This document shows positions 24,537 to 44,500 of a DNA stretch of 64,000 nt, piece after piece. The notes beneath the pieces are model-generated. The model was not told the origin of the DNA, made no database searches, and saw only the letters and a list, made by a program, of their open reading frames with translations. Source of the DNA: Oscillospiraceae bacterium. Lineage in GTDB: Bacteria; Bacillota; Clostridia; Oscillospirales; Oscillospiraceae. The stretch lies in NCBI GenBank assembly GCA_017416685.1, contig JAFQBN010000003.1:83655-147654 (forward strand). Reading direction: 5' to 3'. A program made the position numbers and the translations under genes. The stretch's first letter is position 1; each line of letters begins with the position of its first letter.

Positions 24537-24565
24537 TTGCAATTTGGGTGTCGAGATAGTATAAT
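24537..24565 (+). promoter_or_regulatory. Sigma-A promoter of the branched-chain amino-acid transporter operon
   Basis: TTGCAA (24537-24542), 17 bases, TATAAT (24560-24565), about 90 bases upstream of the binding-protein gene. Confidence 0.85.
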
Positions 24566-24654
24566 CACTTCATATCCATGCACAAGTGTCTTTTAACGGT
24601 GGACATTACCGATAAAAAGATACACAAATCCAATCAAAAAGGAGAAAACAAGTT

Positions 24655-25836: not shown

Positions 25837-25857
25837 TAATCAACAGTTACAGTACTG

Positions 25858-25948
25858 CTTGGCGGGGGCAAATCTGCCCCCGCCAAGCGCTGTATCTTGG
25901 GCTGCCTCGAAAAAGGCTGATTTTTCGGCAGATTTCGAGACAGCCCAA
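25858..25948 (+). other. Two intercistronic hairpins between the binding-protein gene and livH
   Basis: A 13-bp perfect stem (25858-25870 / 25875-25887) and a second near-perfect 16-base stem (25897-25912 / 25933-25948). Neither is followed by a proper T run, so they probably stabilise the upstream message or partly attenuate transcription rather than end it. Confidence 0.6.
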
Positions 25949-25982
25949 TCTGTCTTTCGCAATCTGTTTTAAGGAGGAACTT

Positions 25983-26870: not shown

Positions 26871-26882
26871 GGAGGTTCCCCA

Positions 26883-28058
26883 ATGATTCAGAAAAAAAGC
26901 AAGAAGGGCACCTTTGTCGCCCTTGGGTGTATCATCCTGTTTTTGGCAGTGATCGTACTGCTGGAGAATTTGGGCCTGTTTATGGACAATGTGCCTAAGC
27001 TGCTCAAGCCCACCAGCCAGCTGTTCGTAGTGTTGAAAAAGACCGCCGTGTATGCCCTTGCCGCCGTGTCCATGAACCTGCTGACCGGCTTTACGGGTCT
27101 GTTCTCTCTGGGTCAGGCCGGCTTTATGCTGCTGGGTGCTTATACCTACGCCATTCTGACCGTTCCCATGGCCAACAAGGATCAGGTCTATTACGCCTTT
27201 AACGGCTCTGCGGTGAAGTTCTCTCTGCCCGACCTGTTTGGCGGCGTGGACACCGTTGCCGGCCTTGTGCTGGGTGTGCTGCTGGCCATTATTCTGGCCG
27301 GTATCGTTGCGGCCATCTTCGCCTGGTTCATCGGTCTGCCCGTGCTGCGCCTGAAGAGCGACTATCTGGCCATTGCCACCCTCGGCTTTGCCGAGATCAT
27401 GCGTGCCATCTTCCAGTGGCAGAAACTGGGTCCCGTCACCAACGGCGCAAACATGATCAACAAGATCCCCACCTTTGCCAACTTCAACATCGAGAACGCC
27501 GCCGGCAAGGTGGTGCTGCGCCTTTCCACCTTTGTGCCGTTCCTGCTGGCCATCATCTGCATCGCCATCATCGTGCTGCTCATCAACTCCTCCTACGGCC
27601 GGGCCTTCAAGGCCATTCGAGAGGATGAGATCGCTGCCGAGGCCATGGGCATCAATCTGGCCAAGCACAAGCGCATGTCCTTCTGCATTTCCTCTTTCTT
27701 CGCCGGTATCAGCGGCGCTATGTTTGCCATGTTCGTCAACAACGCTCAGGCAAAGCCCTTTACCACCAACCTGACCTATGAGATCCTGCTTATTGTGGTC
27801 ATCGGCGGTATCGGCTCTATCACCGGCTCCTGCATTGCCACGTTCCTGTACGTGGCCTGCTCCGAGTGGTGGCTGCGCTTCCTGGATTCCCAGACCATGA
27901 TCGGTGACTTCCAGGTACCCCTGCTGCGCCCCGGCTTCCGTATGGTGGTGTTCTCCATCGTCATCATGGTGGTGGTGCTGTTCTTCCGCCGCGGCATCAT
28001 GGGCAACAAGGAATTACCCGACCTCTTTAAGGGCAAGAGAAAGGAGGCGGCGAAATGA
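26883..28058 (+). CDS. livM: Branched-chain amino-acid ABC transporter permease LivM
   Basis: 391-aa integral membrane subunit with about 9-10 hydrophobic segments. Recognisable are NLLTGFTGLFSLGQAGFMLLGAY, LPVLRLKSDYLAIATLGFAEI and the coupling loop GRAFKAIREDEIAAEAMGIN. The insert between the first helices (about 95-125) is longer than in LivH. ATG at 26883 after AAGGAGG. Its stop overlaps the livG start by four bases (ATGA). Confidence 0.95.
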   Translation: MIQKKSKKGTFVALGCIILFLAVIVLLENLGLFMDNVPKLLKPTSQLFVVLKKTAVYALAAVSMNLLTGFTGLFSLGQAGFMLLGAYTYAILTVPMANKDQVYYAFNGSAVKFSLPDLFGGVDTVAGLVLGVLLAIILAGIVAAIFAWFIGLPVLRLKSDYLAIATLGFAEIMRAIFQWQKLGPVTNGANMINKIPTFANFNIENAAGKVVLRLSTFVPFLLAIICIAIIVLLINSSYGRAFKAIREDEIAAEAMGINLAKHKRMSFCISSFFAGISGAMFAMFVNNAQAKPFTTNLTYEILLIVVIGGIGSITGSCIATFLYVACSEWWLRFLDSQTMIGDFQVPLLRPGFRMVVFSIVIMVVVLFFRRGIMGNKELPDLFKGKRKEAAK

Positions 28059-28903
28059 GCGAGAACGTGCTGCGTCTTGAAAACATCACTATGCAGTTTG
28101 GCGGCGTGGTGGCGGTCAATGACCTGTCCATGGAAGTGAACAAGGGCGAGATCGTGGCCCTGATTGGCCCCAACGGTGCCGGCAAGACCACCGCCTTCAA
28201 CTGCATCACCGGTGTGTATGAGCCCACCAACGGCCGCGTCAGCTTCAACGGCGTGCCTATGGTGGAGAACCATCCCCAGGGCAAGATGAAGAAGCTCTAT
28301 GCCGGCGAGCATAACGGCGACTTTACCGCCGTTATCAGCCCCACTCCTGACAAGATCACCCGGCTGGGCATTGCCCGTACCTTTCAGAACATCCGTCTGT
28401 TCTCCGCCCTGACGGTGTTTGACAACGTGCTGATCGCAAAGCACATGCGTGCCAAGCAGAACTTTATGTCCGCAACCTTCCGCTTCAACGCCGCGGAGGA
28501 AAAGCGCATGCGCCAGGAGGCCATGGCCCTGCTGGAGGAGCAGAATCTGGCTCACCTGAAGGACGAGGTGGCAGGTTCTCTGCCCTATGGTCTGCAGCGC
28601 CGCCTGGAGATCGCCCGCGCCCTGGCTACCGAGCCCAGCCTGCTGCTGCTGGACGAGCCGGCCGCCGGCATGAACCCGCAGGAGACCCATGAGCTGACCG
28701 AGTTCATCAAGGAAATTCGCAAGCGTTACGACCTGACCGTGCTGATGATCGAGCATCACATGGACCTGGTCATGAAAATTTCCGACCGCATCTATGTGCT
28801 GGACTTCGGCAAACTGATCGCTCAGGGTACGCCGGAGGAAATTCAGAATAATCCTCGCGTGATCGAGGCTTACTTGGGGGTGGCTGACGATGCTGAAAAT
28901 TGA
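28055..28903 (+). CDS. livG: Branched-chain amino-acid ABC transporter ATP-binding protein LivG
   Basis: 282-aa cytoplasmic ATPase subunit. Walker A GPNGAGKT (about 37-44), the LivG-type signature LPYGLQRRLEIARALA in place of LSGGQ, Walker B LLLLDEPAAGMNP and the switch His in MIEHHMDLVM. A loop insertion of about 20 aa after the Q-loop region (about 70-100) contains GEHNGDFTAVISPTPDK. Overlaps livM by 4 and livF by 14 bases, so translation is coupled. Confidence 0.95.
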   Translation: MSENVLRLENITMQFGGVVAVNDLSMEVNKGEIVALIGPNGAGKTTAFNCITGVYEPTNGRVSFNGVPMVENHPQGKMKKLYAGEHNGDFTAVISPTPDKITRLGIARTFQNIRLFSALTVFDNVLIAKHMRAKQNFMSATFRFNAAEEKRMRQEAMALLEEQNLAHLKDEVAGSLPYGLQRRLEIARALATEPSLLLLDEPAAGMNPQETHELTEFIKEIRKRYDLTVLMIEHHMDLVMKISDRIYVLDFGKLIAQGTPEEIQNNPRVIEAYLGVADDAEN

Positions 28904-29585
28904 TGGTCTGAAAGTCAACTACGGCGGCATCGAGGCCGTCAAGGGCGTTTCCATCGATGTGCCCGAGCGGCAGATCGTCACCCTGATCGGTGCCAACGGC
29001 GCCGGCAAGTCCACCACTCTGCGTGCCATCGCCGGTCTGGTGAAACCCGCTGCCGGCCGCATCCACCTGCAGGGTGAGGATATTACCGGGCTGTCTCCCG
29101 ACCACATTGTGTCCCGGGGCATCACTCTGGTGCCGGAAGGCCGCCGGGTGTTCCCTGACCTGACCGTGCTGGAAAACCTGAAGATCGGTGCATATCTGCG
29201 CAACGACAGTCTGGAGGACGATCTGAAGTGGGTGTACGACCTGTTCCCCCGCCTGAAGGAGCGCTCCTGGCAGGCGGCAGGTACCCTGTCCGGCGGCGAG
29301 CAGCAGATGCTGGCCGTGGGCCGCGCCCTGATGAGCAGACCCAAGATCATGATGATGGACGAACCCTCTCTGGGCCTTGCCCCTCTGGTGGTCAAGGGCA
29401 TCTTCGACATTATCAAGGAGATCAACCGCCAGGGCGTGACCATCCTGCTCATCGAGCAGAACGCCAACATGGCCCTGCGTGTGGCTGACACCGCATATGT
29501 GCTGGAGACCGGCCGACTGACCATGTCGGGTACCGGCGATGCACTGCTGCACAATGAGGCGGTCAAGAAAGCCTACCTCGGTTAA
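28890..29585 (+). CDS. livF: Branched-chain amino-acid ABC transporter ATP-binding protein LivF
   Basis: 231-aa second ATPase subunit. Walker A GANGAGKST (about 34-42), signature LSGGEQQMLAVGRALM, Walker B IMMMDEPSLGLAP, switch region LLIEQNANMAL. Last gene of the operon; the ATG lies inside the end of livG and the gene is followed by a strong terminator. Confidence 0.95.
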   Translation: MLKIDGLKVNYGGIEAVKGVSIDVPERQIVTLIGANGAGKSTTLRAIAGLVKPAAGRIHLQGEDITGLSPDHIVSRGITLVPEGRRVFPDLTVLENLKIGAYLRNDSLEDDLKWVYDLFPRLKERSWQAAGTLSGGEQQMLAVGRALMSRPKIMMMDEPSLGLAPLVVKGIFDIIKEINRQGVTILLIEQNANMALRVADTAYVLETGRLTMSGTGDALLHNEAVKKAYLG

Positions 29586-29591
29586 TAAGGC

Positions 29592-29628
29592 AAAAAAAGA
29601 CCGTTCCCTGCGGGGAACGGTCTTTTTT
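29592..29628. terminator. Bidirectional terminator between livF and the AAC(3)-like gene
   Basis: Perfect stem of about 16 bp (29593-29608 / 29613-29628) with A and T runs on the outer sides, between convergent genes. Confidence 0.92.
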
Positions 29629-30469
29629 ATTGCTTTTTGGGCCAGGTAGTCATTTTGTAGTCATCTACATCCAACATCCATTGGATCCACTTGGGGTTGG
29701 TCACGTCGGTGTAGACGGTGGGTTCCTTCAAAAGATACTCCAACTGGATATCCACGAAAGGACGCACGTCCACAACGGTAAATTGGGCATCTCCGCAGGG
29801 GGCGGAGACCATCAGTCCCTGCTGACGGAACATGGTTTCAAATTCAGAACCATCGGGTTTCCACTTGATGTCGGGCCAGAACGCCTCCTCGATAGGACCG
29901 TTGTAGACCCGCAGGTCGGCCATGGCCTCGGGATGCTTTGCCAATACCTTCTCCGCCGCCACATACTCGGCCAGGTGCCGATGAGTGCCGGTGATGGTTT
30001 GCGTACCCACCCAGACGATCTTGCCGTCGTGATCGTACAGCTTCTGCCAGGGGGAGGAGTGGGCGAAGGCATAGTCGCCGAAGAAACCGTATCGGGGACC
30101 GTAGCCGCCATGCTCGCAGGTAAGCTCGTGGGCCAGTTTGCCCCGGGCGGCCACGGAGTGGGTGGGATTGTCGCTGCGCAGGGTGCCGGGCATGGTGCGG
30201 AACACTTCGGTAATGTAGCCCACCTCGGAGGGGGTGGTGTCCTTATCCCAGATCTCGTAGGCGATGGGGTAGCTCTCGTCGGCCAGAGTGGGGACGGCCA
30301 CGGTACCCTCGGGGCCCACCTGCTCCATAAATGCGTCGATGACGGCCCGGGCGCCGCCCTCCACACGTCCCATGCTCTTCAGGGAGGAGTGGAACACTAC
30401 CACATCTCCGGTTTGAATACCCAGTTGGGTCAGGGTGTTTTTGATGTCCTGTTTGGTAACGATGGTCAT
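29627..30469 (-). CDS. AAC(3)-family N-acetyltransferase
   Basis: 280-aa member of the aminoglycoside 3-N-acetyltransferase fold family (FrbF/YokD-like). Family features are GDVVVFHSSLKSMGRVEGGA near the N-terminus, TLADESYP, GYITEVFRTMPG, RSDNPTHSVAARG with the active-site His, and SSPWQKLYDHDGKIVWVG. Most chromosomal members of this family are not drug-resistance enzymes, and the native amine substrate is usually unknown, so no resistance is claimed. ATG at 30469 with AGGAGG 8 nt upstream. Lone gene convergent with livF and divergent from the GH20 cluster. Confidence 0.88.
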   Translation of the reverse strand: MTIVTKQDIKNTLTQLGIQTGDVVVFHSSLKSMGRVEGGARAVIDAFMEQVGPEGTVAVPTLADESYPIAYEIWDKDTTPSEVGYITEVFRTMPGTLRSDNPTHSVAARGKLAHELTCEHGGYGPRYGFFGDYAFAHSSPWQKLYDHDGKIVWVGTQTITGTHRHLAEYVAAEKVLAKHPEAMADLRVYNGPIEEAFWPDIKWKPDGSEFETMFRQQGLMVSAPCGDAQFTVVDVRPFVDIQLEYLLKEPTVYTDVTNPKWIQWMLDVDDYKMTTWPKKQ

Positions 30470-30586
30470 GCGGATTGCCTCCTGCGCGCCGAAGCGCCGA
30501 TATTAAAGCCATTTTAACACAACCGGAGGAGAAAGAAAACTCCTCCATTGGGACATTTTTGCCCGTCATTACGTCCTGCCGGGTTA

Positions 30587-30614
30587 TTGAAATGGGACAT
30601 GAAAATGATATAAT
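30587..30614 (+). promoter_or_regulatory. Promoter of the first GH20 gene
   Basis: TTGAAA (30587-30592), 16 bases, TATAAT (30609-30614), about 50 bases before the ATG. Confidence 0.75.
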
Positions 30615-30664
30615 TTTTCTGAGAAAATATGGCACAAGGGCCATCAGAAGAGAGGAGAAACAAC

Positions 30665-32344
30665 ATGAACAACCTGCCTTTCAAGCGCGACACCGGCATT
30701 CCCTTCAAACGCTTCGGCGTGCGCACCGACTGCAGCCGCAATGCGGTGTGGAACGTCCCGTCTTTGAAGAAGTGGATCGACATTATTTCCAAGCTGGGCT
30801 ACAACACGCTGACCCTTTACTGTGAGGATACCTATGAGATCGAGGGTGAGCCTTACTTCGGCTATGGCCGCGGCCGCTTTACCAAGGCGGAACTGAAGGA
30901 ACTCAACGCCTATGCCCGTGAGCGTCAGGTGGAGATGATCCCCGGCACCAACACCCTGGCCCATCTGGGCAGCATCTTCCGCTGGGCCCACTACGCCGAG
31001 ATCAATGACAATGCCGACATCCTGCTGTGCGAGGATGAGCGCACCTACGCCCTGATTGAGAAGATGATCGCTACCGCCGCCGAGTGTTTCGACAGCCGCG
31101 TGATCGACATCAACATGGACGAGGCGGATATGCTGGGTCGCGGCAAGTATTACGCCAAGCATGGCCCCGACAAGCGCATTGAGATCCTCAAGCGCCACAT
31201 GAACCGGGTGTGCGAGATCGCCCGCAGCTACGGCTTTGAGATGATCATGATCTCCGGCGATATGTCCTTCCGTCTAGCCACCCACAGCGAAAGCTACAGC
31301 AACACCAAGGCCGTGGTGCAGGAGGATGTGTCCGACCTGATCCCTGAGGGTGCTGTGCTGAAGTACTGGGATTACTACAAGCGCAGCAAGGAGGACTACA
31401 CCGCCCTGACCAAGGTGCATCAGCAAATCAAGGCGGAGGGCCTGTGGTATCAGTGCGGCGTGTGGACCTGGCACGCTTTCTCGCCCGAGAACAACTACAG
31501 CACCGGCGCGATCCGCAACAGCCTGCAGGCTGCCATGGAAAACGGCGTGGAGAACATCAACGTGTGCTTCTTTGGCGACGACGGCGGCGAGTGTGCCCGC
31601 TTTGCCGGTCTGCCCGGCCTGTTCTACGCCAGCCAGATCGCCAAAGGCATCGACGATGAGGCCACCATCAAGGCCAACTTCGAGAAGGAATTCGGCATCC
31701 CCTACGATCAGTTCCTGCTCATCGACCTGACCCAGCGCAACGAGACCGAGGAGTACTGTGTCCATCCCACCCGCTACATCCTGTACAACGATCCCTTCAT
31801 CGGCCTGATGGACATGACCCTGCCCGAGAGCACCCGGGCCGACCACGAGGAGCTGGTCAAGCTGCTGGCGCCTTTGTGCAAGCACCCGGAGTGGGGCTAT
31901 CTGTTCCAGACCATGCACGACCTGTGTGCCGTCACCGCCGAAAAGTGCGACATCGGTACCCGGATCCGCGCCGCTTACGATGCCGGCGACAAGAAGCAGC
32001 TGAAGAAGCTGGCAAAGGAACTGCGCCGCATCCGTGATCTGGTGGAGAAGTTCTACCGCTCCTTCCGCCGCCAGTGGATGCTGGAGAACAAGCCCCACGG
32101 CTTTGATGCGTCCGATGTGCGCATCGGCGGCGTGATGACCCGCCTGGTCCACTGCGCCGAGCGGCTGGAGGAGTATGTGAAGGGCGATGTGGACCGCATC
32201 GAGGAGTTGGAGGAAACTCTGCTGGATGTGCGCACCCCCCTCAGCCCCGACTACGGCAAGCGCAAGTACCTGAACTACTGGGATCGCAACAGCCGTTATT
32301 ACACCGAAATCGTGTCCGCCAACTGGGTGGGCAAGGGCTTCTAA
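30665..32344 (+). CDS. GH20 beta-N-acetylhexosaminidase, paralogue 1
   Basis: 559-aa cytoplasmic TIM-barrel glycosidase resembling pneumococcal GH20C, which removes terminal beta-linked GlcNAc/GalNAc. The barrel opens with DCSRNAVWNVPSLKKWIDI and EDTYEIEGEPYFGYGRGRF; the catalytic Asp-Glu pair of GH20 lies in INMDEADMLGRG (Asp152-Glu153); YWDYYK (about residue 235) corresponds to the region with the acetamido-orienting Tyr; an aromatic WTWHAF follows. Unlike GH20C it begins directly at the barrel and lacks the about 60-residue N-terminal domain. No signal peptide. A helical C-terminal domain (about 385-520) is rich in Glu/Lys/Arg. ATG at 30665 with AGGAG 7-8 nt upstream. First of five paralogues. 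Confidence 0.87.
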   Translation: MNNLPFKRDTGIPFKRFGVRTDCSRNAVWNVPSLKKWIDIISKLGYNTLTLYCEDTYEIEGEPYFGYGRGRFTKAELKELNAYARERQVEMIPGTNTLAHLGSIFRWAHYAEINDNADILLCEDERTYALIEKMIATAAECFDSRVIDINMDEADMLGRGKYYAKHGPDKRIEILKRHMNRVCEIARSYGFEMIMISGDMSFRLATHSESYSNTKAVVQEDVSDLIPEGAVLKYWDYYKRSKEDYTALTKVHQQIKAEGLWYQCGVWTWHAFSPENNYSTGAIRNSLQAAMENGVENINVCFFGDDGGECARFAGLPGLFYASQIAKGIDDEATIKANFEKEFGIPYDQFLLIDLTQRNETEEYCVHPTRYILYNDPFIGLMDMTLPESTRADHEELVKLLAPLCKHPEWGYLFQTMHDLCAVTAEKCDIGTRIRAAYDAGDKKQLKKLAKELRRIRDLVEKFYRSFRRQWMLENKPHGFDASDVRIGGVMTRLVHCAERLEEYVKGDVDRIEELEETLLDVRTPLSPDYGKRKYLNYWDRNSRYYTEIVSANWVGKGF

Positions 32345-32363
32345 AATAGAAACAAAATGCAAC

Positions 32364-32402
32364 AAAATGCCGCGAAAAATTTTGTTTTCGCGGCATTTTT
32401 GC
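32364..32402 (+). terminator. Terminator after GH20 paralogue 1
   Basis: 15-bp stem (32364-32378 / 32385-32399) ending in ATTTTTGC, so paralogue 1 is its own transcription unit. Confidence 0.85.
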
Positions 32403-32431
32403 TTGTATTTTGAACAAAATTACAATATAAT
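32403..32431 (+). promoter_or_regulatory. Promoter of GH20 paralogues 2-3
   Basis: TTGTAT (32403-32408), 17 bases, TATAAT (32426-32431), about 55 bases upstream of paralogue 2. Confidence 0.75.
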
Positions 32432-32484
32432 GATGGACGAAAAACCTGCCGGGGAGCCGGCTGAAAAAGGAGACTGGGACAAAA

Positions 32485-34170
32485 ATGAGCGATTTGTCTG
32501 TCAAAAGCGGGAACGTGATCCCGTTTAAGCGTTTTTCCGCCACGTTGGACTGTTCCCGCAACGCGGTGGTTACGGTGGAGACCTTCAAAAAGTGGGTGGA
32601 CATCATTGCCGCGTTGGGCTATAACCTGACGAGTCTCTACATGGAGGACACCTACGAGGTGGAGGGACACCCCTACTTCGGCCACGGCCGGGGTCGCTAC
32701 TCCAAGGCAGAGCTGAAGGAGATGAATGCCTACGCCCGCTCCAAGGGGGTGGAGCTGTTCCCCAGCATTAACACGCTGGGTCATATGGATACCATCTACC
32801 GCTGGCCCCAGTACAAGGCCATCAACGATGCCTCCGACATCCTGCTGTGTGAGGATGAGCGCACCTATGAGTTCATCGAGAAGATGATTGCCACCTGTGC
32901 CGAGTGCTTCGACAGCCGCATCATCAGCGTGTCCATGGACGAGGCGGAGCTGCTGGGTCGGGGGCAGTATCTGGAACTTCACGGCTATCACAAGAGCCTT
33001 GACATCCTCAAACGGCACATGGCCCGGGTGTGTGAGATGACTGATCGGTACGGCTATGAGATGATGCTGGTGGCCGGCGATATGCCCGTGCGCCTTGCCA
33101 CCGGCAACGACAGCTATATCGACCCAAACAAGACGGTCACCGCCGACGTGTCCGACCTGATGCCGAAGAACGCCGCCCTGATGTACTGGGAGTACTACAA
33201 GCGGGACAAGGAAATTTACAAGGCGCACATGGCCATCCACCAGCAGATCAAGGCGGACAACCTGTGGTATCTGGGCGCGGTGTGGAACTGGCACTCCTTC
33301 TCGCCGGAGAACTATTACAGTACCCGTGCCCTGCGCAACAGCATACAGGCCTGCCGGGAGATGGGAATTGAAAATGTGGAGATTTGCACCTACGGTGACG
33401 ATGGCGCCGAGTGCGGCCGCTTTGCTGTGCTGCCGTCCATGTTTTATGCCAGCCGCGTTGCGGCCGGCATCACCGACGAGGAGCAGATCAAGCGGGAGTT
33501 TGAGCAGATGTTCCACATCGCCTACGATGACTTTCTGCTGCTTGACCTGACCCAGCGCAAGGAGGGAGAAATCTACGGCAGCCATCCCCAGCGCTATATC
33601 CTGTACAACGATCCCTTCATCGGACTGATGGATCTGACCATCCCCGACCACACCCGTGCCGACCACGAGGAACTGATGGAACTGCTGAAGCCCCACTGCA
33701 GCCATCCCGAGTGGGGCTATCTGTTCCGGACCATGTACGATTTGTGCGCCGTTACTGCCGCCAAGTGCGACATCGGCATGCGCATCCGTGCCGCTTACGA
33801 GGCCGGGGACAAAGCGGAGTTGGGCGAGCTGGCTGTGGAGCTGCGCCGCATCCGGGGTCTGGTGGAAACCTTCTACGAATCGTTCCGTTATCAGTGGATG
33901 AAAGAGAATAAGCCCCACGGCTTTGACGTGTCTGACATCCGTCTGGGCGGCGTGATGACCCGATTGAGCCACTGCGCCGATCGGCTGGAGGATTACATCC
34001 GTGGCGACATCGACCGCATCGAGGAGTTGGAGGAAGTCCTGCTGGATATGCGTACCCCTGCCAGCGCCGACTACGGCCAGCGCAAGTATCTGAACTACTG
34101 GGATCGCAACGCACGGCAGTATTGCGACATTACCAGCGCCAATATGCTGTTTAAGCCGCGCACTTGCTGA
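32485..34170 (+). CDS. GH20 beta-N-acetylhexosaminidase, paralogue 2
   Basis: 561-aa cytoplasmic GH20, closely related to paralogue 1 over its whole length. Key parts: DCSRNAVVTVETFKKWVDI, EDTYEVEGHPYFGHGRGRY, catalytic pair in VSMDEAELLGRG (Asp152-Glu153), YWEYYKRD (about 235), VWNWHSF. No signal peptide and no N-terminal accessory domain. The ATG at 32485 has AAAGGAG rather far upstream (12 nt). Forms a two-gene unit with paralogue 3, 16 bases apart. A different inner sequence at the substrate loops (GNDSYIDPNKTVTAD) suggests a shifted specificity compared with paralogue 1; this is inference. Confidence 0.87.
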   Translation: MSDLSVKSGNVIPFKRFSATLDCSRNAVVTVETFKKWVDIIAALGYNLTSLYMEDTYEVEGHPYFGHGRGRYSKAELKEMNAYARSKGVELFPSINTLGHMDTIYRWPQYKAINDASDILLCEDERTYEFIEKMIATCAECFDSRIISVSMDEAELLGRGQYLELHGYHKSLDILKRHMARVCEMTDRYGYEMMLVAGDMPVRLATGNDSYIDPNKTVTADVSDLMPKNAALMYWEYYKRDKEIYKAHMAIHQQIKADNLWYLGAVWNWHSFSPENYYSTRALRNSIQACREMGIENVEICTYGDDGAECGRFAVLPSMFYASRVAAGITDEEQIKREFEQMFHIAYDDFLLLDLTQRKEGEIYGSHPQRYILYNDPFIGLMDLTIPDHTRADHEELMELLKPHCSHPEWGYLFRTMYDLCAVTAAKCDIGMRIRAAYEAGDKAELGELAVELRRIRGLVETFYESFRYQWMKENKPHGFDVSDIRLGGVMTRLSHCADRLEDYIRGDIDRIEELEEVLLDMRTPASADYGQRKYLNYWDRNARQYCDITSANMLFKPRTC

Positions 34171-34186
34171 GAGGGGAGGAAACACG

Positions 34187-35707
34187 ATGTACAAATTGCC
34201 GTTCGAAAACGAGAATACCCATTTCAAGCGATTTGCCACCAAAGTGGATTGCAGCCGCAATGCCGTATGGAACCTGCCTGCGCTGAAGAAATGGATTGAT
34301 GTGATTTCCAAACTGGGCTATAACGCCCTAATGCTCTATACCGAGGATACCTACGAGGTGGAGGGCCACCCCTACTTCGGCTACGGCCGTGGCCGCTTTT
34401 CCAAGGAGGAACTGAAGGAGATCAATGCCTACGCCCTGACCAGGGGTGTGGAGCTGATCCCCAGCATTGCCACCCTGGCGCACCTGCCCACCATCTTCCG
34501 CTGGCCCCAGTACATGCAGATTCTGGACACCTATGACATCCTGCTGTGTGAGGACGAGCGAACCTACGAACTGATCGACGCCATGCTGACCACCTGTGAG
34601 GAGTGCTTTACCTCCCGGGTTATCGACCTGAATATGGGGGAAGAGGAGATGCTGGGTCGAGGCAAGTATATGAGCCTGCACGGTTATCACGAACGGGCGC
34701 AGGTGCTTGCCCGCCACGCGGACAAGGTGCGCCAGCTGGCGAAAAAGCACGGCTTTGAAACCGTGCTGCTCTCCGACAAGAACGGGTGCAAGGCGGACGA
34801 GCGCTGGTGTGTGGGCGACGTGTGGGTGCGTAACGCCTTCAACCCTGAAAACAGCTACAGCATCCATACCCTGCGCGGCCAAGTCGAGGAGGCAAAGCGG
34901 AACGGCGTGGAGAATATGGTGGTGCGCTTCTCCGGCGATGACGGCGGTGAGTGCGCCCGCTTTGCAGGTCTGCCCGGTCTGTTCTGCGCCAGCCGGTTTG
35001 CCAAGGGCATCACCGACATGGACACCATCAAGCGGGACTTTGAGGACGAGTTTGGCATTGCCTTTGATGCCTTCCTGCTGCTTGACCTGACCCAGCGCAA
35101 CGAAACGCAGGCGTGTGGCGTCCACCCCAGCCGTTACATTCTGTACAACGACCCCCTCATGGGGCTGATGGATTTGACCATACCCGACCACACCCGCGCC
35201 GACCACGAGGAGCTGATGGAAGTGCTGAAACCCCATTGCGGCCATCCCGAGTGGGGCTATCTGTTCCAAACCATGTATGACCTGTGCGCCGTTACCGCCG
35301 CCAAGTGCGACATCGGCCTGCGCATCCACGCCGCCTACGCCGCCGGGGACAAAGCGAAGCTGGGCGAGCTGGCGGAGGAGCTGCGCCACATCCGTGACTT
35401 GGTGGAGGTGTTCTACAAGTCCTTCCGCCGCCAGTGGATGCTGGAAAACAAGGGCCATGGCTTTGATGTGTCCGATGTACGCATCGGCGGCGTGATGACC
35501 CGGCTTGTCCACTGCGCCCGCCGGCTGGAGGAGTACGTGGCCGGGCAAACGGACCGGATCCCTGAACTGGAGGATGAGCAGCTGGACGTACGCACCCCTC
35601 TGAGTGCGGATTACGGTAAGCGCAAGTATATGAGCCATCGGGACAGTAACACCCGGATGTACTGCGACGCCGTGTCCACCAACGTGCTGTTCAAGCCCCG
35701 CCGATAA
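34187..35707 (+). CDS. GH20-like protein, paralogue 3, internally deleted and lacking the catalytic Asp
   Basis: 506 aa, clearly homologous to its neighbours from residue 1 to the end, but two changes stand out. The catalytic pair is altered: where the others read MDEA this one reads MGEEE (Gly151-Glu152), so the Asp that assists substrate-assisted catalysis is gone. In addition about 50 residues are missing after FETVLLSDKNG (about residue 200), removing the YWxYYK segment with the acetamido-orienting Tyr. The deletion is in frame and the rest is intact, including WVRNAFNPENSYS and the helical C-terminus. Ribosome site GGGAGG 8-9 nt before the ATG is good, so it is probably expressed. Likely catalytically dead: a lectin-like or regulatory subunit, or a decaying copy. 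Confidence 0.85.
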   Translation: MYKLPFENENTHFKRFATKVDCSRNAVWNLPALKKWIDVISKLGYNALMLYTEDTYEVEGHPYFGYGRGRFSKEELKEINAYALTRGVELIPSIATLAHLPTIFRWPQYMQILDTYDILLCEDERTYELIDAMLTTCEECFTSRVIDLNMGEEEMLGRGKYMSLHGYHERAQVLARHADKVRQLAKKHGFETVLLSDKNGCKADERWCVGDVWVRNAFNPENSYSIHTLRGQVEEAKRNGVENMVVRFSGDDGGECARFAGLPGLFCASRFAKGITDMDTIKRDFEDEFGIAFDAFLLLDLTQRNETQACGVHPSRYILYNDPLMGLMDLTIPDHTRADHEELMEVLKPHCGHPEWGYLFQTMYDLCAVTAAKCDIGLRIHAAYAAGDKAKLGELAEELRHIRDLVEVFYKSFRRQWMLENKGHGFDVSDVRIGGVMTRLVHCARRLEEYVAGQTDRIPELEDEQLDVRTPLSADYGKRKYMSHRDSNTRMYCDAVSTNVLFKPRR

Positions 35708-35720
35708 TTGAAATACAAAC

Positions 35721-35756
35721 ATTACCGCACCGGTTGTAAGCCGGTGCGGTAATTTG
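35721..35756 (+). terminator. Terminator after GH20 paralogue 3
   Basis: 13-bp stem (35721-35733 / 35741-35753) with a 7-base loop; moderate T content downstream. Confidence 0.75.
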
Positions 35757-35766
35757 CTTTTTCTGC

Positions 35767-35795
35767 TTGCGTTTTGCGGGGGGATAACTTATAAT
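35767..35795 (+). promoter_or_regulatory. Promoter of GH20 paralogue 4
   Basis: TTGCGT (35767-35772), 17 bases, TATAAT (35790-35795), about 47 bases before the ATG. Confidence 0.7.
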
Positions 35796-35842
35796 GGCGG
35801 CAGGAGAAACGCCTAGAAATGGCGGAAAAGGAGAAATGAGAC

Positions 35843-37489
35843 ATGAGTGAACTGACCTTTAAGCGGTTTGGTACGCAGATTGACTGCTCCCGCAACGCGG
35901 TAATGAATGTGAAGTCCATCAAGCAGTGGATTGACCTGGTTGCCGCCATGGGCCACAACACCCTGATGATGTATACCGAGGACACCTATGAGGTGGACGG
36001 CCATCCCTACTTCGGCTATGGCCGCGGCCGTCTGACCAAGGAAGAGATGAAGGAGATCAACGCCTACGGTGCCGAGCGGGGCATCGAGCTGATTCCCTCC
36101 ATCAACACCCTGGCCCACATGGGTACCATCTTCCGCTGGAAGCCGTACGCCGAGATCCACGACTGTGAGGACATTATGCTCTGCGACGATGAGCGCACCT
36201 ATGCCCTTATCGACGACATCTTCCGCACCCTGAGCGAGTGCTACACCTCCAAGGTGGTCAACGTGGGTATGGATGAGGCCGGCATGCTGGGCCGCGGCAA
36301 GTACTACGACGCCCACGGCGATGCCCGCCGCATTGACATCATCTACCGCCACCTGCAAAAGGTGGCCGAGATCGCCAAGAAGTATGGCAAGGAACTGCTC
36401 ATTTACAGCGACATGTTCTACAGCCTTGCCACCCATGCCGAGTACTCCGACGAGACCGCTCAGGTGGTGGAGGATGTCGCCACCCAGATCCCCGACAACG
36501 TCAGCCTGGTGTACTGGAACTACTACAAGCGCACTGTGGAGGATTACTCCGCCATTATGAACGTCCACCGCCAGATCAAGCCCGAGGGGCTGTGGTACTA
36601 CGGCGGCACCTGGAACTGGTTTAGCTTCAACCCCGAGAACAGCTACGGCATCGCCCATCTGTCCAACGCCATCAAGGCCTGCCAGAATACCGGCGTGGAG
36701 AATATGATTATCTCCATGTGGGGCGACGACGGCGGCGAGTGCGGCCGCTTTGCTAGCCTGCCCGCCGTGTTCTGGGCTACCGAGCTTGCCAAGGGCAACA
36801 CCAATGAGGCGGACATCAAAAAGAAGTTTGAGAAGCTGATGGGCGTGCCCTTTGACCAGTTTATTCTGCTGGACCTGACCAGCCTGGGCGAGACCGAGCG
36901 CTACGGCAGCCACCCCAGCCGGTACATTCTGTACAACGATCCCTTTATCGGTCTGATGGATCTGACCCTGCCCGAAAGCACCCGTGCCGACCACGAAAAG
37001 CTGGCGGCGCAGCTGGCCCCCCTGTGCAAGCACCCTGAGTGGGGTTATATGTTTGAGACCATGCATGACCTGTGTGCCGTGGCTGCCGAAAAGTGCGATA
37101 TCGGTCAGCGCATCCGTGCCGCCTACGATGCCTGTGATTTGAAGGAGCTGAAGAAGCTCTCTAAGGAACTGCGCCGCATTGCCAAGCTGGTGCGTAAGTT
37201 CTACCTCTCCTTCCGCAAGCAGTGGATGCTGGAAAACAAGGGTCACGGCTTTGACGTGTCCGATGCCCGCATCGGCGGCGTTATGACCCGTCTGGAAAGC
37301 TGCGCCGACCGTCTGGAGGACTACATCGACGGCCGCATCGAGCGAATCGAGGAGCTGGAAGAAGAATTGCTGGATGTTCGTTGCCCCGGCCATGCCGAAT
37401 ATGGCAAGCGCATGTACATGGACTACTGGGGTAAGGGCCGCCACTATGCCGATATCGTGTCCGCCAACGTGGTGGGCAAAGGGTATTAA
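35843..37489 (+). CDS. GH20 beta-N-acetylhexosaminidase, paralogue 4
   Basis: 548-aa cytoplasmic GH20, the most divergent of the active-looking copies. N-terminus starts nearly at the barrel (MSELTFKRFGTQIDCSRNAV). Catalytic pair in VGMDEAGMLGRG (Asp144-Glu145), YWNYYKRT and TWNWFSF in the substrate region, WGDDGGECGRFA in the usual place. The spacing and residues around the substrate pocket (DMFYSLATHAEYSDETAQ) are nearer to pneumococcal GH20C than those of the other copies. ATG at 35843 with AAAGGAG about 9 nt upstream. Own promoter and a very strong shared terminator, so a monocistronic unit. Confidence 0.87.
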   Translation: MSELTFKRFGTQIDCSRNAVMNVKSIKQWIDLVAAMGHNTLMMYTEDTYEVDGHPYFGYGRGRLTKEEMKEINAYGAERGIELIPSINTLAHMGTIFRWKPYAEIHDCEDIMLCDDERTYALIDDIFRTLSECYTSKVVNVGMDEAGMLGRGKYYDAHGDARRIDIIYRHLQKVAEIAKKYGKELLIYSDMFYSLATHAEYSDETAQVVEDVATQIPDNVSLVYWNYYKRTVEDYSAIMNVHRQIKPEGLWYYGGTWNWFSFNPENSYGIAHLSNAIKACQNTGVENMIISMWGDDGGECGRFASLPAVFWATELAKGNTNEADIKKKFEKLMGVPFDQFILLDLTSLGETERYGSHPSRYILYNDPFIGLMDLTLPESTRADHEKLAAQLAPLCKHPEWGYMFETMHDLCAVAAEKCDIGQRIRAAYDACDLKELKKLSKELRRIAKLVRKFYLSFRKQWMLENKGHGFDVSDARIGGVMTRLESCADRLEDYIDGRIERIEELEEELLDVRCPGHAEYGKRMYMDYWGKGRHYADIVSANVVGKGY

Positions 37490-37503
37490 GTCTGTTTGCA
37501 AAC

Positions 37504-37547
37504 AAAAAGAGGAAGGCATCGGTCATAACCGATGCCTTCCTCTTTTT
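37504..37547. terminator. Bidirectional terminator between GH20 paralogue 4 and the AraC gene
   Basis: 20-bp perfect stem (37504-37523 / 37528-37547) with a 4-base loop and A/T runs on both outer sides. Confidence 0.93.
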
Positions 37548-38442
37548 ATGTTGTGGGGTGCTCCTTGCGGTGCGCCCGACGGTAAGCACCGGGGGAGATG
37601 CCGAAGGTGCGCTTGAACGCCACGAAAAACCCGGAGGTGGAGGTGTAACCCACCAAAGAGGCGATGTCCTCCACCGGCGTGTCGGTCAGAAGCAGATGCT
37701 GCAGGGCGTGATGCATTCGCATTTCGTCCAGTTTTTTCTGAAATGTTGCCCCCTCATATAACCGGGGCAGGATGCGGCTGAGCTGCCGGCGGCTGACACA
37801 CAGCTCCCGGGCCAGATCCTCCTGGGTGATGCCGGTGGCGAAGTTGCGCCGCATGAACTGCTCGATCTTATGGTACTGGGCGCTCTCTGCGTCCCACGCG
37901 GCCGAGGCGGGGGAGGGGATGGAGGCACTTTGCCCGCAGTGGCGCAGCAGCAGCAGGCAGAATTGCTGCAGCAGGACGCGCAGAAGCGACTCGGAAAACA
38001 GGCCCGGCATAGATGCCTCCTGGCACACAGCCAGCATGGAGGCACGCAGCTGTTCCTCCCTGTGCAGACGCAGCGGCACGTCCTTGGGCAGACACGCAAG
38101 AGTCTGAGCAAGGAGGGAGGGGCGCCCCTGTCCCGGCTTGCGCTGCCAGAACAGGAACAGGCTGAACTGCCGGGCGGGTTGGAGTCCGGGACTGCTGCGG
38201 TGGATCAGCCCGGTTGGAATCAGGCACAGATCCTCCGGTGCGGTAAGCTCCAGCGAGCCGCCCTCAAATTCGATGCAATACTGCCCGGACAGGGGCAGCT
38301 GCACTTCCAGCGCCCGATGGGCGTGGGGGGAGGAGATAACAATATCGTGACTGCCGTTGCTCTGAACATGGAAGAGCAGGTCCTCCAAATCGAACTGAAC
38401 GCTGAAGTTGAATCCTTCGTGTGGAACGAGGGGTAAGGCCAT
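37546..38442 (-). CDS. AraC-family transcriptional regulator in the GH20 cluster
   Basis: About 298 aa: N-terminal cupin-type sensing domain (about 1-130, with HRALEVQLPLSGQYCIEFEGG and LIPTGLIHRS) and C-terminal double helix-turn-helix (about 195-290, with ITQEDLARELCVSRRQLSRIL and VEDIASLVGYTSTSGFFVAFKRTFGISPGAYR). The ATG at 38442 is chosen because GGGAG lies 9 nt upstream; an ATG three codons earlier would sit on that site. It is divergent from GH20 paralogue 5 and convergent with paralogue 4, so it most likely regulates the GH20 genes in response to an amino sugar or oligosaccharide. An inverted repeat in the divergent region (38482-38516) is a candidate operator. Confidence 0.93.
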   Translation of the reverse strand: MALPLVPHEGFNFSVQFDLEDLLFHVQSNGSHDIVISSPHAHRALEVQLPLSGQYCIEFEGGSLELTAPEDLCLIPTGLIHRSSPGLQPARQFSLFLFWQRKPGQGRPSLLAQTLACLPKDVPLRLHREEQLRASMLAVCQEASMPGLFSESLLRVLLQQFCLLLLRHCGQSASIPSPASAAWDAESAQYHKIEQFMRRNFATGITQEDLARELCVSRRQLSRILPRLYEGATFQKKLDEMRMHHALQHLLLTDTPVEDIASLVGYTSTSGFFVAFKRTFGISPGAYRRAHRKEHPTT

Positions 38443-38481
38443 ATCCGTCATCTCCCATAAACATTTAAAATAGGGCCACAT

Positions 38482-38516
38482 TCCGTAAAAAATAGACACC
38501 TTTGTTTATTTACGGA
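38482..38516. promoter_or_regulatory. Candidate AraC operator upstream of GH20 paralogue 5
   Basis: TCCGTAAA (38482-38489) and its exact reverse complement TTTACGGA (38509-38516), 19 bases apart; the right half overlaps the -35 of the paralogue 5 promoter. It lies between the divergent AraC gene and its likely target. Confidence 0.45.
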
Positions 38517-38537
38517 TCTGCGGGAAAGAGATAGAAT
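38509..38537 (+). promoter_or_regulatory. Promoter of GH20 paralogue 5
   Basis: TTTACG (38509-38514), 17 bases, TAGAAT (38532-38537); the poor -35 fits a promoter that needs an activator. Confidence 0.6.
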
Positions 38538-38623
38538 AAAAGAAATTGGGGAATGCAAACATTTTAATATGAGCCAGCCCCGAAAGTCAATAGCGACACA
38601 AACGAACCGAAAGGAGAACGAAT

Positions 38624-40285
38624 ATGTCTAACACCGATCCGTTCAAACGCTTTGGTACTTTCCTGGATTGTTCCCGCAACTCCGTTATCAACATGCCCAC
38701 CCTGAAGCGCTGGGTGGACTACACCGCCAAGATGGGCTACAACGCCATGACCCTCTATACTGAGGATACCTATGAGATCGAGGGCGAGCCTTACTTCGGT
38801 TACGCCCGGGGCCGCTATACCAAGGCCGAGCTGAAGGAAATTCACGCCTACGCCAAGCAGCGGGGCATCGAGTTGTTCCCCACCATCAACACCCTGGCCC
38901 ACATGAAGTCTATCTTCCGCTGGAAGAACTATGCCGAAATCAACGACTGCGGCGACATTCTGCTGGTTGGGGATGAGAAGACCTACGCCCTCATCGACAA
39001 GATGTTTGCCACCTGTTCCGAGTGCTTTGAAAGCCGCGTCATCGCTGTGTGCATGGACGAGGCGGAGCTGCTGGGTCGTGGCAAGTATCTGGAGCGCAAC
39101 GGCTATCACGAGCGTATCGATGTCTTCAAGTATCACATGGCCAAGGTGTGCGAGCTTGCCAAGAAGCACGGCTACGAGATGGTCATCTTCTCCGGCGACA
39201 TGCCCTTCCGTCTGGCTACCCGCAACGACAATTACAGCGACATCAGCGCCACCGTGCAGGTGGATGTGACCGATTTTGTCCCCGATGTGGGTGTGTTGCA
39301 GTACTGGGACTACTACAAGCGGGACAAGGAAGAGTACAAGGCCCTGATGAATATCCATCAGCAGATTAAGGCGGATGGCGCGTGGTATCTGGGCGGCGTA
39401 TGGACCTGGCACGCCTTCAATCCCGAGAACTATTACAGCACCCGGGCTCTGCGCAACTCCATGCAGGCCTGCCGCGAGCAGAACGTGGAGAATGTGGCGG
39501 TAGCCATCTTCGGCGATGACGGCGGCGAGTGCCCCCGCTTTGCCACCATGCCCGGCATCTTCTATGCCAGCCAGATTGCCAAGGGCATTACCGATGAGGA
39601 CGAGATCAAAAAGAACTTTGAGGAGATGTTTAACATCCCCTACGATGCCTTCCTGCTGCTGGACCTGACCCAGCGCAAGGAGGAGGATGAGTACTGTGTC
39701 CATCCCACCCGGTACATTCTGTACAATGACCCCTTCCTCGGCTTGATGGACCTGACCCTGCCCGACAGCACCCGTGCCGACCATGAGGAGCTGGTCAAGC
39801 TGCTGAAGCCCTGGTGCAGCCACCCCGAGTGGGGCTACCTGTTCCAGACCGCCCACGACCTGTGTGCCGTTACCGCCGAGAAGTGCGACATCGGTCCCCG
39901 TATCCGCGCCGCTTACAAGGCCGGGGACAAGAAGCTGCTGAAAAAGCTTGCCAAGGAATTGCGCCGCATCCGCAAGCTGGTGGAGCAGTTCCACCGCTCC
40001 TTCCGCAAGCAGTGGATGATCGAGAGCAAGTCCTTCGGCTTTGAGGTGACCGACGCCCGTGTGGGCGGCGTGATGACCCGCCTGAACACCTGCGCCGACA
40101 TTTTGGAGCAGTACATCCGCGGCGACATCGACCGCATCGAGGAGCTGGAGATGGAGCAGCTGGATCCCCGCACCCCTCTGGATCCCACCTACGGCGTGAA
40201 GAAGTACCAGACCTACTGGAACCGCAACAGCCGCTATTATTCCGACATCGTGTCTGCCTGCGTGACCGACAAGCCGGAAAACTAA
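38624..40285 (+). CDS. GH20 beta-N-acetylhexosaminidase, paralogue 5
   Basis: 553-aa cytoplasmic GH20. DCSRNSVINMPTLKRWVDY and EDTYEIEGEPYFGYARGRY at the start, catalytic pair in VCMDEAELLGRG (Asp145-Glu146), YWDYYKRD (about 228), VWTWHAF, FGDDGGECPRFA. Most like paralogues 1 and 2 in the middle region, but with a different C-terminal half (EVTDARVGGVMTRLNTCADILEQ). ATG at 38624 with AAAGGAG about 8 nt upstream. Separated from the other four by the AraC gene and divergent from it. Confidence 0.87.
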   Translation: MSNTDPFKRFGTFLDCSRNSVINMPTLKRWVDYTAKMGYNAMTLYTEDTYEIEGEPYFGYARGRYTKAELKEIHAYAKQRGIELFPTINTLAHMKSIFRWKNYAEINDCGDILLVGDEKTYALIDKMFATCSECFESRVIAVCMDEAELLGRGKYLERNGYHERIDVFKYHMAKVCELAKKHGYEMVIFSGDMPFRLATRNDNYSDISATVQVDVTDFVPDVGVLQYWDYYKRDKEEYKALMNIHQQIKADGAWYLGGVWTWHAFNPENYYSTRALRNSMQACREQNVENVAVAIFGDDGGECPRFATMPGIFYASQIAKGITDEDEIKKNFEEMFNIPYDAFLLLDLTQRKEEDEYCVHPTRYILYNDPFLGLMDLTLPDSTRADHEELVKLLKPWCSHPEWGYLFQTAHDLCAVTAEKCDIGPRIRAAYKAGDKKLLKKLAKELRRIRKLVEQFHRSFRKQWMIESKSFGFEVTDARVGGVMTRLNTCADILEQYIRGDIDRIEELEMEQLDPRTPLDPTYGVKKYQTYWNRNSRYYSDIVSACVTDKPEN

Positions 40286-41540: not shown

Positions 41541-44500
41541 ATGAAGAAAATGATGTCATTCCTGCTTGCGCTGGTCATGGTGGTATCCATGGTTCCCGGC
41601 GGGACAATCTCCGTGTCCGCTGCGGAGGCAACAGAGCCTTTGCAGGCCTACTACACGGCGGAGAACATGTCTATGGACGGCGCTTTGCGCGAGGAGGACT
41701 GGCTGCTGCGGGACAAGATCGGCAGCACTCCCATTGCGCTGCTCAACGCCCAAAACGCGCTGTACATTGCGGTGAAGACCGAAGAAAAGGCAATGGACTT
41801 TACCGTAAACGGTAAGGCATTCAAGATTGACCTGGCCGCCGGCGCTGTGCAGCTGAACGGCGAGAAGGTGGGCGCGGCCGCCTTTGATATGCAGGCAGGC
41901 ACCGCCGAGTTCGAGATTCCTATGTCTGCGCTGGACCTGATTTACACCGTGGGTCAGGTGGTGGACTTTGCCTGCACCATCGGCGCCGACAGCTACAGCG
42001 GCACGCTGGTCATGGCCGAGAAGGCCGTCAAGCTGGCTGAGAGCTTTGATAACATTACCTCCCTGACCAAGGGCGGTACCACCAAGTTCGGCGGCGCCAC
42101 CGCCGAGGGCTACGCCACCCAGGGCGAGGGCGGCTCTCTGCATATTCAGACCGGCCCCCTGAGCGACAACGGCTACTCCTTCCATCAGCCCAACTGGAGC
42201 GCCGAGAAGCTGGGCATGGATCTGAGCCGCGGCTATGAGCTGTCCTTTACCGCCGACTTCAACGACCTGTGCGTACCTGCGGCGGATCAGCTGGCCTACA
42301 CCGCCATTGTCGGCTTTGCCGTGGACGTGCGCGCCAATGTGTATCTGCGCCACAGCTTTACCGCCGACAAAAACGGCAACCTGATGATCAGCCAGTACGA
42401 AAACTACGCCGACCAGACCCGAGTCATCGACACCGGCTACGATCTGCCGGTCAAGAATCTGGCGGTCAAGTTTGTGGTGGATGATGCCTTCAATGTGGAG
42501 GTGTTCATCAACGGCAAGAGTACGGCCAAGTTTGCCACAACAACCCGCCGTACCACCGCCGGCACTGTGATGTTCAGCACCTGCACCGGCCGCCGCGACC
42601 TGTCCAGCCCCCGCAAAAACGATGTGGCGATTTACGACCTGCTGATCACTCAGGCCGCCCCCAACGAGCAGATGACGGTGGGCAAGCTGGCCAACTCCGG
42701 GGATTTGAAGCTGGACGGCGCTGCCTCCGAGGTGCTGTGGTCCCTGCCCTACGCCGTGGGCGGCACCCGCTACGGTCTGCTGTACGATGAAGAGAACCTG
42801 TACATTGCCCTGAACAGCGACAAGTCCCAGGTGGACTTCCAGTTCGGTGAGCAGAAGGCTACTGCCAAACTGGGCAAGAATCCTACCGTGGCCCTGGGCT
42901 TCACCATGGGTCCCACCATTGCCGGCGACGGCAAGGGTCAGTACGAGATCAAAATTCCCTTAAGCCTTTTGAAGTTTGAGGGCAAGCTGCCCTTTGCGGT
43001 CACCTCCGACGGCGCTACCCGCCGCAGCGATTTGACCTTCAGCACCGTGACTGTATCCGTTTTGGAGCAGGCTGTTGCCGCCGGTGATGGCAAGGTGGAC
43101 GCCATTGCCTACCTGAACACCGACAAGGTTACTCTGGATGGCAAGCTGAAAGAAAATCACTGGTACAACCCCTACCGGACCCAGGGCTCTGCCGGGGCTA
43201 TTGCCACCGGCGTGGGCTTTATGTGGGATGCCAACTACCTGTATATGGGCGCCCAGATGTTCAACCGCAGCCGTCCCCAGGCCCTGAACCTGACAGTGAA
43301 CGGCAAGACCATGTCCGCGGATCTGGCCGCCGGCACCGCCACCATGGGTAATGTGGTGGGCGATGCCCAGACCATGGAGTGGCGCATTTCTCTTGCCGAT
43401 TTGGGTCTGACCCCCGGCAACGGCGTGGCCACCGACTACAAACTGGAAGTGGTGGGCGCCGGCGGCATCTCCGTGCTGCAGGGCAAGCTGACCATGCAGG
43501 CCACCGTGGTGGTCTTCGGTGACACCTGCGATGATATCAACACCAAGGATTACGCTGTTACCAACGGCAAGCTGGCCGGTACTGAGGTGGTGCAGGGAAA
43601 CGGCGCTTATGATATCAACACCGAGGACGGCTTTACCGGCAGCGAGTATTACCAGATGCATACCCCGCTGATTAACTATGAGGGCGGCGCATACGAGTTC
43701 GTCATCGACCTGACCATCGAGTCCCTGCCCCACAACACCCGTACCCTTGGCTGGCGCGGCCTGAACTGGGAGATTCGTCAGCCCGGTCTGCAGACTCGCT
43801 TCTGTCTGCGCAGCGATGGTAACAAGAATGTTATCATGGATGTGCTCAACCGCCGTTACTATACCTCCATGGACACTGGCATCGACTTCGGCGAGCGGGC
43901 GGTGATCCGCTTCTCCGTGGACGAGAATCTGAATCCCACGTTGTTTGTCAACGATAAGCCGGTGGGCGGCTTCCCGGCGCTGGACCGTACTGCCTTTACC
44001 ATCAGCGACAACCTGCACATGCCCCGTCTGATTTTGCAGGCCATGAACTATGACCGGGATCCCGACGCCGATGGCAAACTCAGCGGATTGAATGTTGAGG
44101 TCCACGATATGCTTTGGACCCAGACCGTGTTTACCGACGCCCGGGGCGCGGCCGAAAGCGCTATGAAAACCATTACTCAGGACAATGTGCTGCTGGGCGC
44201 TGATCCCGAGGACGTGACAAAGCTGTATCTGGTGAACTCCATCGCCGACTCCAACACCGGCCTGACCAGTGCCGTGACCTGGAAGGCCATCGACAAGGTC
44301 ACCGGCAAGGTGGCTACCAACGTCAACCTCGACACCGGCGTCGTCACCCGTGGAGATGCCCCCCTGTACTTTGATTTGATCGCCACCGTTGTCTATGACG
44401 GCGTGGGCGTGTCCAAGACCTTTACCTTCCAGACCAAAGGTAAGGCGACCAGCGGCAAGGTGGGCTTCATCGTCAAGGATGAGGATCCCCGCGTGGGCCA

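Follow-up and report, generated by a model that had tools for sequence, protein, structure and literature searches.

The substrate-assisted mechanism of GH20 enzymes goes together with a cage around the acetamido group and the sugar ring, formed in GH20C of Streptococcus pneumoniae (SpGH20C; SP_2141; PDB 5a69, 5a6k, 5ac4, 5ac5) by W266, W306, Y308 and W373; SpGH20C numbering is used for all residues below. In the cited part of its description SP_2141 appears as a single gene in a carbohydrate-processing locus (PMC5215778). GcnA of Streptococcus gordonii (PDB 2epk-2epo) is a homodimer, in which the C-terminal tail inserts into the active site of the partner according to the cited section of PMC4449183. 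The corresponding cage Trp is kept in HEX-2 of Trichuris suis (8qk1), as stated in part of PMC11308363. HEX-2 and human HexA/HexB share 12-14% sequence identity with the proteins studied here in the aligned part.

A stretch of 64,000 nucleotides (the window) from an Oscillospiraceae bacterium was analysed. As claimed by a sequence-only reading, five homologous ORFs (W1-W5, positions 30629-40285, + strand) adjoin one another as a local GH20 expansion, with an AraC gene amid them and giant surface proteins next door, namely two large SLH proteins with BNR regions. The features are as follows.

29627-30469, - strand: AAC(3)-like N-acetyltransferase (PF02522), adjoining the array in all three species
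30587-30614, + strand: promoter-like site of W1 (11 of 12 match)
30629-32344, + strand: W1, GH20C-type, 571 aa (alternative ATG at 30665, 559 aa)
32364-32399, + strand: terminator-like hairpin in the W1/W2 gap (consensus match)
32426-32431: TATAAT box ahead of W2 (consensus match)
32485-34170, + strand: W2, GH20C-type, 561 aa
34187-35707, + strand: W3, GH20C-type, probable pseudoenzyme, 506 aa, C-terminal domain present
35721-35753, + strand: terminator-like hairpin in the W3/W4 gap (consensus match)
35790-35795: TATAAT box ahead of W4 (consensus match)
35843-37489, + strand: W4, GH20C-type, 548 aa
37546-38499, - strand: AraC-type regulator (HTH_18, E 1.2e-20), between W4 and W5 and divergent from W5
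38624-40285, + strand: W5, GH20C-type, 553 aa
40337-41275, - strand: amidohydrolase (PF04909), adjoining the array in all three species
41541-47465, + strand: large SLH surface protein with a BNR_2 (sialidase-like) region, adjoining the array
48623-53812, + strand: large SLH surface protein with DUF4886 and Big_2 (BNR_2 match below cut-off)

W1 probably starts at 30665, where the ribosome-binding site is better by eye. The five proteins had been called GH20 enzymes, with a profile search named as possible refutation; this search puts them inside GH20. The Pfam model of the GH20C C-terminal domain (PF18088, domain III) matched all five (E 4e-53 to 1.6e-50), and the GH20 catalytic domain (PF00728) was found above the Pfam cut-off in four, W3 scoring below it (19.3 vs 22.3 bits). 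A search of NCBIfam assigned no family to W1-W5. PDB sequence profile matches relate all copies to SpGH20C and to GcnA (E 5.3e-124), the match to GcnA beginning at profile position 8, residue 100 of the 649-residue chain. The N-terminal domain of SpGH20C and the N-terminal GH20b domain as in GcnA are absent from the array copies; many Clostridia GH20C relatives outside the array are equally short (about 540 aa). The PYFG and RGR motifs are present in every copy, as had been noted, but DCSRNAV, also ascribed to all five, is exact in four and reads DCSRNSV in W5.

The array copies differ from SpGH20C and GcnA in the pocket. Including three more GH20C copies of this genome, located on another contig (second locus), seven of eight copies have lost both W266 and W373, and W4 has lost W266 alone (W266→Y); as judged from the aligned residues, this loss of pocket Trp is what is new here. 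The substitutions are W266→I and W373→F in W1, W266→V and W373→Y in W2, and W266→F and W373→F in W5. Because W266 is kept in 0/8 and W373 in 1/8 of the genome copies, we do not class them, on sequence grounds, as classical GH20C enzymes with a complete SpGH20C pocket. Both Trp residues are kept in 79/79 outside GH20C proteins, a non-random set of 79 ORFs at 77 loci (the best 80 of 570 confirmed relatives minus three of the clade itself, and without the 247-aa GH20C fragment of L100). R94, D222, E223, W306, Y308 and D375 are all retained in seven of the eight genome copies, and the catalytic Asp-Glu pair D222/E223 is present in four of the five window copies, W3 being the exception both in the window and genome-wide.

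A Gly insertion after strand 5, seen in W1 and missing from W3, occurs in 15 rows of the clade described below vs 0/79 outside sequences from the best 80 of 570 relatives. The same column holds a letter in both G729 sequences of a later set (20 ORFs from 14 regions of ten chosen genomes, mostly multi-copy, with some of the copies per genome). One second-locus copy has Lys in place of E123, where 79/79 outside proteins of the best 80 of 570 have Glu. The C-terminal tails of the copies extend 6-8 residues past the reference column, vs 2 in 38/79 outside sequences; as 25/79 of these (from the best 80 of 570) have 4 or more, the extension was dropped as a mark of the clade.

The locus had also been called undescribed. 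This stands as far as our search of one open literature library goes. Tandem GH20C genes, two or three adjacent ones, also exist elsewhere in the order (G541, G550, G729, G512; G596 by listing). The first four belong to other families of the order and keep W373, and W266 too with a single exception in G729, whereas the array copies have lost both (W4 only W266). With these four arrays we reject the idea that tandem expansion in general leads to loss of the Trp residues. The tandem proteins of G541, G550 and G512 are longer than the array copies.

In a tree from which three rows were left out (two partial ones of G012 and the divergent L077b), the eight genome copies form one clade together with 11 relatives that belong to two further species of the genus; in this clade W4 and its orthologue are sister to all remaining copies. 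G014 (MAG RGIG1833, goat caecum) has an orthologue of every one of W1-W5, and there the five genes and the AraC gene lie in the same order. In G012 (MAG SIG489) the array is split on two contigs, ending inside the third and the fourth gene; an AraC-type gene is found in both species. Since these two MAGs share the arrangement, an assembly artefact is unlikely. Dosage amplification of one enzyme, as suggested by the sequence-only reading, would fit the tandem arrangement and the local similarity peaks between copies, which perhaps reflect sequence exchange. We consider it highly improbable because all ten pairs of W1-W5 share 57-68% identity, every copy has its own orthologue in G014, and the pockets differ, one copy even being without the catalytic Asp.

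We favour, with a probability of about 0.5 for the explanation as a whole, an old expansion, kept by vertical descent, of a single GH20C-type exo-beta-N-acetylhexosaminidase that is probably cytoplasmic. The sequences show that the copies share common descent and that W4 with its orthologue split off first; in the other lineage two pocket Trp residues were replaced and the Gly after strand 5 was gained (W3 excepted), the catalytic Asp-Glu pair and the hydrogen-bond partners of the acetamido group staying in all copies but W3. Catalysis would still be substrate-assisted, hydrolysing off a terminal 2-acylamido sugar. The pocket appears to be opened at its floor and at the wall that binds the acyl group, and so the copies may cut amino sugars that are different or modified (for instance by a larger N-acyl group, or by substitution near C4/C6) and that would enter the cell as oligosaccharides. 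Nevertheless, Phe or Tyr at position 373 may still stack on the sugar, hence specificity is perhaps unchanged; alternatively, loss of the cage could result in weak or no activity. The earlier proposal of a division of labour is plausible in the form of altered specificity, in view of the pocket differences among the copies, but does not extend to W3, which is no normal enzyme. The five-copy array suggests new sugar specificities and not merely more of the same enzyme. A natural lineage of this kind tests what the cage is for, and having the catalytic pair without two cage Trp it may yield enzymes for amino sugars uncut by known hexosaminidases.

W3 is probably a pseudoenzyme, as indicated by its sequence: catalytic D222 is replaced by Gly, about 53 residues including W306 and Y308 are gone, W339→R and W373→S are further changes, and the predicted model is without one barrel strand. 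Its G014 orthologue has lost E223, and the G012 copy breaks off ahead of these residues. The same losses (D222 in this genome, E223 in G014, one strand of the modelled barrel) would make W3 the extreme case if most copies were catalytically weak sugar-binding or regulatory proteins, for which the loss of W266 in 8/8 copies also speaks. Dispensable catalysis would not predict, however, that D222, E223, R94, W306, Y308 and D375 stay intact in the seven other copies of the genome, and we regard this explanation as improbable.

Within the favoured expansion, W3 may pair with the neighbouring W2, donating its tail or regulating W2, because the C-terminal tail of GcnA completes the active site of the dimer partner. 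This pairing is based on adjacency (W3 starts 16 bp downstream of the W2 end) and on one 45-codon window, the W2-W3 similarity peak, which was picked after the fact; comparable peaks exist in other pairs (W1-W5 87%, W2/second-locus copy 87%, W1-W3 86%). Although probably a pseudoenzyme, W3 shows a dN/dS of 0.17 against its orthologue; together with W5 it evolves faster than the remaining copies. A wholly W2-derived domain III of W3 is unsupported (77% to W2 vs 76% to W1). That the retained W3 serves as a non-catalytic subunit is a weaker inference than the pocket reading. The combination of an acyl pocket rebuilt for other 2-acylamido sugars with a dead W3 whose tail completes or tunes W2, i.e. 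a hetero-oligomeric hexosaminidase with a pseudoenzyme subunit, seems unlikely to us. In a family sharing active sites across the dimer, a retained probable pseudoenzyme makes heteromer control testable.

Gaps, TATAAT-like boxes and hairpins suggest four transcription units, W1, W2-W3, W4 and W5. Promoters and terminators were called as consensus matches, the boxes being located by script. Terminator-like sites are in excess over shuffled sequences (22 vs 10.6, sd 4.1), but promoter-like sites are not (9 vs 5.7, sd 3.1), and a search with a gapped promoter pattern gave no match. The octamer TGGGACAT is found at 30549 and 30593, with no further occurrence on either strand of the window. Separate promoter-like sites and four probable transcription units would also be expected if the copies were ordinary GlcNAc/GalNAc hexosaminidases of overlapping activity, differing mainly in regulation, with the pocket change as tolerated drift. 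This would also fit the amino-sugar catabolic genes in the genome and the fact that seven of eight copies retain the catalytic pair and most of the contacts. Yet near-invariant pocket residues change jointly, and among the sequences examined only in this clade; we hold this explanation to be possible but less probable than an expansion with altered pockets.

No signal peptide is evident in W1-W5 from hydropathy (largest N-terminal 15-residue mean 1.14, in W2; largest 19-residue mean anywhere 1.07). Imported oligosaccharides are therefore the likely substrates of the favoured expansion, and the host N-/O-glycans named in the sequence-only reading are unlikely to be attacked directly, in the cell's surroundings. 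The transporter near the array belongs to the branched-chain amino-acid type and is not an obvious sugar importer; the second locus has a sugar-type ABC transporter. PDB and NCBIfam searches with the second-locus enzymes of GH127-like and glycyl-radical type gave no substrate, and a PDB sequence search with the amidohydrolase next to W5 gave no match. The AAC(3)-like N-acetyltransferase scores under the NCBIfam cut-offs for aminoglycoside enzymes. The array hints that small-genome Oscillospiraceae of the gut occupy a niche based on amino sugars. Among the 77 outside GH20C loci (best 80 of 570), with neighbour clusters named from one representative each, the largest cluster (59 loci) was discarded, being taken from its representative as frames antisense to GH20C. 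Neighbours at these loci include AraC (10/77), GH2 (9/77), the glucosamine-6-P isomerase family (7/77) and ABC ATPases (6/77).

The genome from which the window comes (1.86 Mb in 38 contigs) carries eight PF18088 genes, five of them in the array W1–W5 (30629–40285, with an AraC gene between W4 and W5) and three on contig 36; one additional PF00728 match, on contig 28, lacks PF18088. Within the genus, PF18088 is present in 3 of 64 genomes with 8, 7 and 6 matches, the seven in G012 (MAG SIG489, another species) including one cut at a contig end and one distant long form. In the family sample 23 of 399 genomes have PF18088, which outside the window's genome and G014 (MAG RGIG1833 from goat caecum, a further species of the genus) occurs as a single copy in 20 and as two copies in one. 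The order sample contains 68 positive genomes out of 395, and G541 ranks next below the window's genome with seven. Two to three adjoining GH20C genes occur there in G541, G550, G729, G596 and G512, and therefore GH20C tandems are not unique; an array of five accompanied by an AraC gene, by contrast, was observed only within the small clade studied here. The tandem array noticed by the sequence-only reading is real, but it differs in kind from the undescribed glycan-use locus proposed there: to judge from the sequences, a GH20C clade has expanded here, its pocket has been rebuilt and one member, probably a pseudoenzyme, has been retained. No paper on this array or on a GH20 pseudoenzyme was recognised among the results listed from the open-access literature.

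In Streptococcus pneumoniae GH20C (SpGH20C), as given in PMC11308363, R94 contacts O3, D222 N2, E223 O1 and D375 O4/O6, while W266 and W306 contact the N-acetyl group, Y308 O7 and W373 the ring. R95 and D376 of the S. gordonii relative GcnA, which is numbered as SpGH20C plus one, are consistent with this assignment (PMC4449183). W266 and W373 are found together in all 79 outside sequences taken from the best 80 of 570 relatives, and a further 20 sequences have W266 in 19 and W373 in 20 cases. None of the eight copies in the window's genome retains W266, and only W4 retains W373. R94, E223 and D375 are kept in 8/8 copies and D222, W306 and Y308 in 7/8, the exception being W3. One second-locus copy carries Lys in place of E123, a position occupied by Glu in 79/79 outside sequences (best 80 of 570). 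Furthermore, 15 clade rows show a Gly insertion after strand 5, in contrast to 0/79 of these best-80-of-570 sequences; both G729 sequences among the further 20 also have a letter in this column. Conservation of 97% or more across the 99 outside sequences is seen at 41 columns. Leaving W3 aside, seven of these columns differ in at least five of the remaining seven own copies, three differ in one to three of them, and 31 are untouched. From this distribution we read the pocket change as concerted rather than as general drift, and the changed pocket may alter specificity.

W3 is probably a retained pseudoenzyme. It shows the changes D222 to Gly, W339 to Arg and W373 to Ser, and a gap of about 53 residues takes in W306 and Y308, while the C-terminal domain and tail are retained. 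The G014 orthologue has the same deletion, and Asp-Val replaces Asp-Glu, so that E223 is lost and D222 kept; the G012 piece of W3 stops short of this site. In an AlphaFold2 model of W3 seven strands are listed and the strand bearing W306 is absent, and the confidence of 91.5 may flatter the model because a homologous alignment was used.

The gap between W2 and W3 is 16 bp, and the pair, bounded by two terminator-like hairpins, may be transcribed as a unit. In one 45-codon window of the C-terminal domain they are 90% identical at the DNA level, and the remaining six copies reach 75–80% against W3 there; comparable peaks occur elsewhere (W1–W5 87%, W2 and a second-locus copy 87%, W1–W3 86%). GcnA is a dimer in which the C-terminus of one subunit reaches into the other's active site (PMC4449183); that W3 pairs with W2 in a heterodimer is therefore a testable idea rather than a result.

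In a tree of 99 proteins, built by a quick method with SH-aLRT support, a single group (support 99) unites the eight copies of the window's genome with 11 of G014 and G012, and W4 with its orthologue is sister to the remaining 17 members (97). The nearest outsider among the matches listed is L036 from a sheep-rectum Clostridia MAG (best segment 51% identical). Orthologues of W1, W2 and W5 are present in both G014 and G012 and those of W3 and W4 in G014, and cut-off pieces from G012 fit W3 and W4; for C36b, a second-locus copy, no orthologue was found in this tree. NG86 dN/dS of orthologue pairs with the own copies was 0.02–0.17 overall, with 0.16–0.17 for W3, 0.15–0.17 for W5 and values below 0.1 for all others. 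Comparisons between G014 and G012 contain a few upstream codons, since some frames of both read from stop to stop. The two orthologues of W5 (38624–40285) share 96% identity, yet W5 itself reaches only 86–87% with them and has a deviating strand-5 motif; exchange with another copy is possible.

The second locus is common to G012 and G014, whole or in part:

Contig 36, 22085–36438: second GH20C locus (L017/L018) with three GH20C genes

Also encoded there are a sugar-type ABC transporter, represented by its binding protein and two permeases, a short glycyl-radical enzyme together with its activase, and a GH127-like protein. In L077 (6062–14891) of a distant Clostridia MAG, glycyl-radical enzyme and activase flank one side of a GH20C gene, and on the opposite side there are four similar ORFs, each some 295 aa long.

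NagA matches of at least 140 bits, counted by hand from the match listing, number 7 in the window's genome, 7 in G012, 8 in G014, 5 in G013 and 4 in G016; none of the 59 remaining genomes of the genus has more than two. With G013 and G016 included, amino-sugar specialisation therefore seems to extend slightly past the GH20C clade. The seven own NagA-family matches lie on contigs 6, 9, 24 and 28 of the 1.86 Mb genome, four of them above cut-off; one NagB above cut-off and two ROK genes are also present. The surroundings of the array include:

29627–30469: AAC(3)-like acetyltransferase, adjoining the array in 3/3 species, far below NCBIfam cut-offs for resistance enzymes
47548–48465, minus strand: second AraC-type regulator, between both SLH proteins

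On the far side of the AAC(3)-like gene and the branched-chain transporter genes, the neighbours of the G012 array are a nagA above its cut-off and two genes scoring below theirs: one is nagB-like, and the other belongs to the DapA/NanA family and comes closest to N-acetylneuraminate lyase. The BNR region of the first SLH protein resembles sialidase A (E 5e-7). Hydropathy revealed no signal peptide in the array proteins, so that trimming at the surface would likely be followed by uptake and then by cleavage in the cytoplasm. Two sites of TGGGACAT, a possible operator, lie 5′ of W1 (30549, 30593), and neither strand of the 64 kb has any others; three copies are readable upstream of the orthologue in G014.
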